Source of the DNA: Mesorhizobium sp. B2-7-1
GTDB lineage: Bacteria > Pseudomonadota > Alphaproteobacteria > Rhizobiales > Rhizobiaceae
NCBI RefSeq assembly: GCF_006440735.1
Contig: NZ_VFUA01000023.1
Span: 1-64,000, forward strand
DNA length: 64,000 nt
Reading direction: 5' to 3'
Under the pieces are notes generated by a model. The model had not been told where the DNA came from and did no database searches. It saw only the letters and a list, made by a program, of their open reading frames with translations. Within the stretch, counting starts at the first letter, position 1, and the number at the start of each line of letters is the position of its first letter. A program made the translations under genes and the position numbers. Below are positions 30,673-32,492 of the stretch, one piece after another.

Positions 30673-32058
30673 TTAGCGTGTCAGCGCATCGAGGATTCGC
30701 GCCCAGGACCGCTGCCCCTTGTGGAAGGAGGTCAGCTCGTATTTCTCGTTCGGCGAGTGGATGCGGTCGTCGTCGAGGCCGAAGCCGACCAGCAGCGATT
30801 CCATGCCGAGATAGGTCTGGAAATCGCCGACCACGGGAATCGAGCCGCCGCCGCCGGTGGTGATCGCCTGCTTTTCCCATTCGTCGGACAGGGCGTCCTT
30901 GGCCTTGGCCAGGAACGGCGAGTCGTAGGAAAGCTGGATCGCCGGCGAGCCGCCATGCGGGTGGAATTCGACCGAGCAGTCGCCGGGGATGCGTTCGCGC
31001 ACGAAGGCCTGGAAGGCGGCGCGGATTTTCTTCGGATCCTGCTTGTGGACGAGCCGGAACGATACTTTGGCCGACGCTTCCGCCGCGATCACCGTCTTGA
31101 AACCCTTGCCGGTGTAGCCGCCGATGATACCGTTGAATTCCGCCGTCGGCCGCGCCCAGGTGAGCTCGAGCACCGAGCGGCCCTTTTCGCCGGCCGGAAT
31201 GGAGAGACCGACCGGTCGGAGGAAGGTCTCGGCCGTCTCGCCGAGCCCTTCCCAGGACTTCAGCACCTGCGAAGGCGTCTCCTCGACCCCGTCATAGAAG
31301 CCTGGAATCGTGACGTGGCCGTCCTTATCGTGAACATCGGCCAGCACCTTGGCCAGGACGCGGATCGGATTGGCGGCGGGACCGCCATACAGGCCCGAAT
31401 GCAGGTCGCGGTTGGCCGCCTTGACGGTGACCTCCTCGCCCACCATGCCGCGCAGCGACACGCAGATCGACGGCGTCTCGCGGTTCCACATGCTGGTGTC
31501 GCAGACCAGCGCGAAATCCGCCTTCAGCTCGGCGGCGTTGGCTTCCAGGAACGGCTTCAGCGACGGCGAGCCGGATTCCTCCTCGCCCTCGAACAGGATG
31601 GTGACGCGGCACGGCAGGTTGCCATGCACCTGCTTCCAGGCGCGGCATGCCTCGACGAAGGTCATCAGCTGTCCCTTGTCGTCGGCCGAGCCGCGGCCGG
31701 TGATCACCTTGCGTCCAGGCTCGGTCTCCTTGATCGAGGGCGCGAACGGATCGGTTTCCCACAATTCGATCGGATCGACCGGCTGGACGTCGTAGTGGCC
31801 GTAGAACAGCACATGCGGGGAGCCTGCCGGTCCCTCGTGATGCGCCACCACCATCGGATGTCCGGGCGTGTCGCGGATACTGGCATCGAAGCCGATCAAC
31901 TTCAGCTCGGCGACCAGCCATTCCGCGCCCTTGCGGCAGTCGGCGGCAAAGGCCGGGTCGGTGGAAATCGACTTGATGCCGAGCAGGCCGAACAGCCGCT
32001 CCAGGCTCTGGTCGAGATTCTGGTCGAGACGGTCGAGGACAGGGGCGATTCTGGACAT
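30673..32058 (-). CDS. M20 family dipeptidase
   Basis: A 461-aa zinc metallopeptidase. Metal ligands and catalytic residues are seen in VLFYGHYDVQPVD (His and Asp), TGRGSADDKGQ (Asp), LFEGEEESGSPS (catalytic Glu pair) and near the C-terminus DDDRIHSPNEKYE (His). A dimerisation domain occupies about 210-360. Close relatives (DUG1/CNDP-like) act as cytosolic dipeptidases; substrate choice is inferred. It is preceded on the same strand by a probable small RNA with its own terminator. Confidence 0.9.
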   Translation of the reverse strand: MSRIAPVLDRLDQNLDQSLERLFGLLGIKSISTDPAFAADCRKGAEWLVAELKLIGFDASIRDTPGHPMVVAHHEGPAGSPHVLFYGHYDVQPVDPIELWETDPFAPSIKETEPGRKVITGRGSADDKGQLMTFVEACRAWKQVHGNLPCRVTILFEGEEESGSPSLKPFLEANAAELKADFALVCDTSMWNRETPSICVSLRGMVGEEVTVKAANRDLHSGLYGGPAANPIRVLAKVLADVHDKDGHVTIPGFYDGVEETPSQVLKSWEGLGETAETFLRPVGLSIPAGEKGRSVLELTWARPTAEFNGIIGGYTGKGFKTVIAAEASAKVSFRLVHKQDPKKIRAAFQAFVRERIPGDCSVEFHPHGGSPAIQLSYDSPFLAKAKDALSDEWEKQAITTGGGGSIPVVGDFQTYLGMESLLVGFGLDDDRIHSPNEKYELTSFHKGQRSWARILDALTR

Positions 32059-32155: not shown

Positions 32156-32305
32156 ATAAAAGAAGACCGCCGTGGTGGAGGGGGAACCACGGCGGTCTCT
32201 ACTCGAAACGATGCGGCAGCCCGGAGAGGGGGGATAGGCTGCCGCAGTTTGCCCGGGATAGGCGGGGGACGGGCCTTACTCCGGACTTCGGCGAAAACTG
32301 CCGAT
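32156..32305 (-). ncRNA. Candidate trans-acting sRNA with C-rich loops (alpha-r14/cuckoo-like)
   Basis: On the minus strand three hairpins follow each other: stems GCCCG (32251-32255/32270-32274), TGCGGCAGCC (32212-32221/32237-32246) and a perfect 13-bp AGACCGCCGTGGT stem (32164-32176/32186-32198). The last is followed by TTCTTTTAT, a Rho-independent terminator. Each loop is C-rich (TCCCCCGCC, TATCCCCCCTCTCC, TCCCCCTCC), able to pair with Shine-Dalgarno sequences. That design is known from rhizobial alpha-r14 (NfeR1) and cuckoo RNAs. A possible promoter is TTGAAT (32340-32335), 17 bases, CAAATA (32317-32312). The 5' end is an estimate. Confidence 0.55.
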
Positions 32306-32340
32306 GACGTGTATTTGGGTCTTTGAACATGGCGATTCAA

Positions 32341-32372
32341 GGGCATGAAAATTACACTTTTGTAACATGCCC
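32341..32372. promoter_or_regulatory. Double inverted repeat upstream of the sRNA
   Basis: Outer arms GGGCATG (32341-32347) and CATGCCC (32366-32372) enclose inner arms TTACA (32352-32356) and TGTAA (32361-32365), with an AAAA bulge on one side. It lies directly upstream of the putative -35 box of the small RNA. It could be an operator or a cruciform-prone element. Confidence 0.4.
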
Positions 32373-32388
32373 GTGAGCGGCGGATTCC

Positions 32389-32492
32389 GTGCATGTCGCC
32401 CAAAAGTGTGAAGCGGTTTTGGGAAAACGACATGCACGAAGAAAAATGACCCAAAGCGCGTCTCCTGAATCCGTTTCCGCGCGACGCGTCTT
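32389..32492. repeat. Two-module palindromic intergenic repeat (RIME-like), copy 4
   Basis: Module one has arms GTGCATGTCG (32389-32398) and CGACATGCAC (32428-32437) around AAGCGGTTTTGGG. Module two (32453-32492) reads AAAGCGCGTCTCCTGAATCC then CGCGCGACGCGTCTT. The order matches the element at 1-79. Confidence 0.75.

Follow-up and report, generated by a model that had tools for sequence, protein, structure and literature searches.

The window (the whole 64-kb stretch of DNA analyzed here) carries on its minus strand a gene of the alpha-r7 (Smr7C) small RNA family; the family is already catalogued in rhizobia, and the locus is not a new kind of RNA. The Rfam ar7 model (RF02342) matches the minus strand at 32306-32161 over its full length (model positions 1-145 of 145) with 117.4 bits against a cut-off of 60, and RF02342 is the only Rfam family that exceeds its cut-off anywhere in the window. 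Synonyms of RF02342 are ar7 and alpha-r7, and Smr7C, SmrC7, sra03 and SmelC023 for the RNA of Sinorhizobium meliloti; the family has been in print since 2007 (PMC2780559, PMC2245857). A regulatory small RNA on this strand, ahead of an M20 peptidase gene, had been proposed from the sequence, and both its coordinates and its strand were right.

The window RNA shares with alpha-r7 its loops, the divergent polA gene, a similar size and a terminator, and nothing essential differs. Copies vary in their 5' hairpin and in the spacer that separates them from polA, and in the genome studied here a repeat lies between the RNA gene and polA. The published alpha-r7 model likewise has a variable 5' part; behind it come two hairpins whose loops are highly conserved, and then a hairpin that serves as terminator (PMC3927594). 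The features of the locus are as follows.

32158-32306, minus strand: alpha-r7 (ar7/Smr7C) RNA gene; full-length Rfam RF02342 match of 117.4 bits, and 128 bits with our own model R1, in which the window copy is itself one of the sequences
32289-32303, minus strand: 5' hairpin (helix 1), from the fold; 95.4% of cells paired
32251-32286, minus strand: hairpin 1, loop GUCCCCCG at 32270-32263, from the fold, loop conservation and covariation
32213-32245, minus strand: hairpin 2, loop AUCCCCCCUCUCC at 32235-32223; 10 of 10 pairs with compensatory changes
32156-32197, minus strand: hairpin 3, a Rho-independent terminator, loop UUCCCCCUCC at 32186-32177, with U-rich tail; 10 of 11 pairs with compensatory changes
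32313-32343, minus strand: candidate promoter CCCTTGAA-N17-CCAAAT, sigma-32/RpoH-like and overlapping a sigma-70 type, from a motif match
30673-32058, minus strand: M20 family peptidase (PRK09104), downstream neighbor on the same strand as the RNA; Pfam PF01546/PF07687, NCBIfam NF006579 at 819 bits
32587-35541, plus strand: DNA polymerase I (polA), divergent neighbor; NCBIfam NF004397 at 1186.9 bits, TIGR00593 at 926.1 bits
32390-32488, no strand assigned: interspersed repeat lying outside the RNA, in the spacer that separates its gene from polA; at least 41 matches in the same genome, itself included

Distribution of alpha-r7

Searches with the Rfam model found ar7 in 36 of 37 same-genus genomes, the sole miss (G007) being 86% complete. 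Of 199 genomes searched across the family, 166 have it at E<=1e-3 and 134 have it above the cut-off. No match was found in 24 genomes from other families of the same order. In a class-wide draw of 289 genomes, with stricter filters, only the genome studied here exceeded the ar7 cut-off, and the loci of two weak matches (39.2 and 31 bits) had no polA match at E<=1. One published statement is that Smr7C was not found in Mesorhizobium huakuii 7653R (PMC5596092).

We examined 117 distinct copies: 30 from the 36 same-genus genomes with matches, and 87 from the family search, one genome (G509) supplying two. The 87 comprise the 27 best new copies and 60 selected among the lower scores, a choice that gives weak members more than their natural share. 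The window copy and 84 of the 87 family copies were aligned with MAFFT (85 copies, 84 distinct), leaving out three copies without polA or M20 nearby and the other 29 same-genus copies. The model R1 was built from this alignment. Alpha-r7 is single-copy in the genome studied here, and the next match to R1 there reaches 19.5 bits (E 0.48).

R1 was also run on the polA loci of 18 family genomes that were negative with Rfam (20 of the 33 negatives were taken, and two had no polA match). Five of the 18 gave matches (E 1.8e-9, 2.9e-5, 4.3e-5, 2.4e-4 and 8.9e-4), each divergent from the polA match and some 110-310 nt ahead of it; two of them come from genomes that measure 1.4 and 1.5 Mb. Because two loci that are not beside polA score similarly (L031, E 6.9e-5; L032, E 1.3e-3), the four weaker cases rest on position and not on score.

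At 60 polA loci from outside the family, R1 gave nothing at E 0.5 (best E 0.58, inside polA), and the hairpin scan found two-hairpin groups only and no group of three. These loci are a non-random sample, made up of the 30 best polA scores from a search with matches in 111 genomes and the 30 best from a second search with matches in 91, and each reaches no further than about 1.5 kb past polA. Within the limits of this sample and this sensitivity, polA-linked C-loop RNAs were thus not seen in other alphaproteobacterial families, which gives a provisional answer to the question raised in PMC3771888 about polA-linked RNAs elsewhere.

Two observations lie to the side of this distribution. Two genomes of one genus (G431 and G509; loci L127, L130 and L137, two of them from G509) have ar7-like matches of 52.9-64.2 bits with neither polA nor M20 within about 1.5 kb. 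In another family of the class, the stretch L031:1501-1623, just downstream of an Hsp20 gene (PF00011), contains runs of CCCCCCC and CCCCTCTCC and ends like a terminator; it scores 39.2 bits with ar7, below the cut-off, and 29.6 with R1, and is possibly an unrelated C-loop RNA.

Conserved loops on covarying stems

Alpha-r7 displays three conserved C-rich loops on freely covarying stems. The window copy folds with a minimum free energy of -71.5 kcal/mol, against a mean of -46.36 (sd 3.89) for shuffled sequences (z -6.46; none of 200 shuffles was as stable). The fold confirms the three minus-strand C-loop hairpins of the original prediction, the last of them a terminator, and adds a short 5' hairpin (32303-32289) that the prediction had missed. 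The loop cores had been described as C-only, which is correct for loop 1 alone, since loop 2 has CUCUCC and loop 3 has CCUCC. By the criteria of our hairpin scan of both strands, no other place in the window has three neighboring C-loop hairpins; one other group has two. The stem-loop of hairpin 3 proper spans 32197-32165, its U-tract runs to about 32158, and a U-rich tail follows the terminator hairpin in 111 of the 117 copies.

Conservation of the stems in relatives had been proposed as a check, and covariation is indeed present. With the fold of the window copy as reference structure, 94.0% of 2861 cells in the 85-copy alignment are paired (82.9% when shuffled), and 32 of 35 pairs are changed on both sides in some copies (21.8 when shuffled). 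The covariation score is 0.417, compared with 0.220 for the shuffled alignment and 0.061-0.122 for slid controls. The loops hardly change. Loop 1, GUCCCCCG (as DNA, GTCCCCCG), is present in 115 of the 117 copies (30/30 same-genus, 85/87 family), and loop 2, CCCCCTCTCC, in all 30 same-genus and 69 of the 87 family copies. For loop 3, CCTCC or CCCC occurs in the last 45 nt of 30/30 same-genus and 84/87 family copies.

Promoter, transcript and processing

The sequence upstream of the RNA start, at 32343-32313, is CCCTTGAATCGCCATGTTCAAAGACCCAAAT. It fits CNCTTGAA-N17-CCANAT, which we take to be the rhizobial sigma-32 (RpoH) consensus. Judged from its sequence, the promoter looks heat-shock-sigma-like, and the RNA may be under the control of a stress sigma factor. 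CTTGAA-N17-CCANAT matches once on the two strands of the window, at ar7. In 202 loci (832,029 bases, both strands) it matches 40 times, always at ar7 starts: 39 matches belong to the 117 examined copies, and one precedes a diverged copy found with R1 (L188), which has CTTGAA-N17-CCAAAT just upstream. Of the 30 same-genus copies, all have CTTGAA with the 17-nt spacer and 21 have the full motif; of the 87 family copies, 18 have the full motif and nine lack any CTTGWW in the scanned stretch. For the S. meliloti RNA, a review table enters SmelC023 as 'RpoD RpoH1/2' (PMC7143759), and a sigma-70 promoter alone was predicted in PMC2780559; PMC3616915 warns that sigma-70 and RpoH promoter motifs overlap.

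The predicted primary transcript is about 148 nt long, from about 32306-32304 to the U-tract at about 32158, with its exact ends inferred from RACE data on Smr7C. Smr7C itself is a primary RNA of 148-150 nt that is processed to 106 nt and is about 13-fold up in nodules (PMC2780559), and a listing in PMC2873474 gives it as confirmed by deep sequencing and northern blot. It gave no signal in Hfq co-immunoprecipitation, an absence that weak binding may explain according to the authors (PMC2848018).

The reported ends of Smr7C (starts at 201679/201681, processed 5' end at 201723; PMC2780559) were mapped on the sequence of S. meliloti 4H41 (L312), which served here in place of strain 1021. Two pairs of start Gs are possible on this sequence. 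With the final U of the run as the 3' end, one pair reproduces lengths of 148 and 106 nt and puts the cleavage at GUC/CCCCG in loop 1; the other pair puts it two bases further along, which is within the C-run as well. The cleavage site corresponds to about 32268/32267 in the window, inside the loop of hairpin 1.

Mode of action and targets

We consider it probable that this single-copy RNA, with a promoter and a terminator of its own, acts in trans as an antisense RNA through its C-rich loops on G-rich mRNA sites, because the loops are conserved on stems that vary freely, Smr7C is a discrete transcript, and sX13 of Xanthomonas offers an analogue. Alpha-r7 would be transcribed independently from the CTTGAA-N17-CCAAAT promoter, divergently from polA, and transcription would end at its own terminator, ahead of the M20 peptidase gene. 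One of the loops (GUCCCCCG, CCCCCUCUCC or CCCCUCC) would then pair with G-rich sites at or near the ribosome-binding sites of several mRNAs and alter their translation or decay, probably without a need for strong Hfq binding. The cut in loop 1 of the bench-studied relative suggests that target contact and turnover of the RNA may be linked.

The RNA could instead be a decoy for a C-binding RNA-binding protein, which its repeated C-rich loops would titrate. Three similar loops on freely varying stems are what repeated protein sites would look like, and the 6C RNA model matches weakly (31.5 bits). Nevertheless, the three loops are not identical and each keeps its own conserved form, Smr7C showed no association with Hfq (PMC2848018), and we found no partner protein in the open-licence literature. 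We therefore regard a decoy as unlikely.

For the antisense reading, a search of the open-licence literature returned no tested target of alpha-r7. The complement of loop 2, GGAGAGGGGG, is not enriched in the genome studied here, with 24 sites (one of them ar7 itself) against 23 for the reversed control. Two contexts recur among these sites, resembling AAGCCGAGACGGAGAGGGGG or CGAAGCGGACGGAGAGGGGG; together they hold 19 of the 24 and look like a second dispersed repeat.

The zapA leader has been predicted as a target of Smr7C (PMC2245857). We found no support for it among 30 zapA loci, the top scorers from a set of 60 genomes that have a ZapA match. In 18 of the 30, the G-run (GGGG or GGGGG) precedes a promoter-like element of the zapA operon, TTGA[C/T]-TAA[T/G], by 21-23 nt and is thus probably outside the transcript, which makes the leader an unlikely target. 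As a separate observation, this G-run, about 370-550 nt upstream of zapA in 18 of the 30 family loci (L204-L233), is a conserved DNA element.

A more specific version of the antisense reading is one that we put forward tentatively and hold to be rather doubtful as a whole. Alpha-r7 would be a family-wide, single-copy, RpoH-linked 'consumable' antisense RNA, in which loop 1 is both the seed for G-rich sites and the cut site (GUC/CCCCG), so that use is coupled to turnover. The 106-nt form, with loops 2 and 3 only, would have a different target range. The polA-linked C-loop design would have arisen separately in Rhizobiaceae (alpha-r7) and Xanthomonadaceae (sX13), a suggestion made because none was seen at the 60 polA loci from other alphaproteobacterial families.

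Gene neighborhood

The RNA gene lies between a divergent polA and a downstream M20 gene in 90 of the 117 loci; polA is divergent on its 5' side in 101 and M20 is downstream in 103. Both neighbors are present in 29 of the 30 same-genus loci, and M20 alone in one. Among the 87 family loci, 72 have polA, 73 have M20, 61 have both and three have neither. The distance from ar7 to polA is 164-202 nt in 23 of the 29 same-genus loci where it was measured. In S. meliloti, the flanking genes are polA and SMc02851 (PMC2245857, PMC2573895).

Given this arrangement, the RNA might be a cis-acting leader or attenuator of the M20 gene, in which hairpin 3 stops transcription unless a signal permits read-on. 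It is on the same strand as M20 and ends in a terminator, and in 80 of the 103 loci with M20 that gene follows it at a distance of 56-226 nt. In another 22 of the 103, however, the M20 match begins more than 370 nt away, and 11 of the 87 family loci have ar7 next to polA but lack an M20 match over about 1.5 kb. Moreover, Smr7C accumulates as a discrete RNA of 148-150 nt (PMC2780559), and constant loops on variable stems suit pairing better than a switch between terminator and antiterminator. A leader function is therefore very unlikely, and we retain the trans-acting antisense RNA as the preferred reading.

The double inverted repeat that had been noted upstream of the RNA is real: 32388-32398 pairs with 32428-32438, and 32354-32362 with 32401-32409. 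It is mostly part of the interspersed repeat, and its arms are found upstream of only four of the 30 same-genus ar7 loci, those with a polA distance of 279-282 nt. Since matches to other copies of the repeat begin at 32384-32391 or later (the query began at 32370, and 40 of 155 candidates were scored), three of the four arms are in the repeat or at its edge, and the arm at 32354-32362 is outside. Two Brucella sRNA models match the repeat at 32390-32488 below their cut-offs (BASRCI27, 42.8 of 59.8 bits; BASRCI408, 27.3 of 398), and those Rfam families may thus contain dispersed-repeat sequence.

Comparison with other C-loop RNAs

The original prediction had placed the RNA near the alpha-r14 (NfeR1) and cuckoo RNAs, as a diverged member or a separate family. 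It is separate, and it is the known ar7/Smr7C family. Covariance searches with the Rfam models of alpha-r14 and cuckoo, which the prediction had recommended, both stayed below cut-off at the locus: 41.2 of 58.8 bits for ar14 (RF02344; E 4.2e-6 for an 801-base search) and 19.1 of 65.3 for CcsR1 (RF02791). The alpha-r14 and cuckoo RNAs do share with ar7 three hairpins with exposed C-rich loops, a terminator and a rhizobial distribution. Alpha-r14 differs in that the unpaired stretch of each of its hairpins carries CCUCCUCCC (PMC10746234), and in having four genes in the genome studied here, whereas ar7 has the loops GUCCCCCG, CCCCCUCUCC and CCCCUCC and a single copy beside polA. The CCUCCUCCC motif (as DNA, CCTCCTCCC) occurs in none of the 117 ar7 copies, the window copy included. 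Two of the four ar14 genes are about 100 nt apart on one contig (contigs G000:C201 = L290, C177 and C192). A diverged alpha-r14 or cuckoo/CcsR RNA acting through CCUCCUCCC anti-Shine-Dalgarno loops is thus extremely unlikely and was rejected, despite the common hairpin plan and the sub-threshold matches, because both models are under cut-off where ar7 is far above its own, the loop motif is absent, and the four true ar14 genes lie elsewhere, all over cut-off (96.6-72.2 bits).

A functional parallel to alpha-r7 is sX13 of Xanthomonas, which is also polA-linked, has three stem-loops with apical C-rich (4C) motifs and can dispense with Hfq; the likeness is already in print (PMC3771888). According to the same source, sX13 has no sequence similarity to alpha-r7 and is limited to Xanthomonadaceae, and it lies downstream of polA instead of divergently upstream. 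For sX13, the C-motifs and the G-rich target motifs are both required for repression, and exchanging both partners failed to restore control (PMC3771888); direct pairing is thus unproven for sX13 too.

Among the others, 6C RNA (RF01066) and CcsR1 share C-rich loops in consecutive hairpins, the former scoring 31.5 of 47 bits at the locus. PmaR of Agrobacterium shares a C-rich loop for target pairing (PMC6234868) and, going by its description, differs in its spoon-like single long stem with one loop.

Meaning for the family

The assignment to alpha-r7 corrects a label and adds no new kind of RNA, because the RNA belongs to a catalogued family. That family is widespread (166 of 199 family genomes), with nearly unchanging loops. 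The heat-shock-type promoter and the mapped cut within a conserved loop are two concrete handles on alpha-r7. If the consumable-antisense reading were true, loop 1, as both seed and cut site, would couple the use of alpha-r7 to its turnover.
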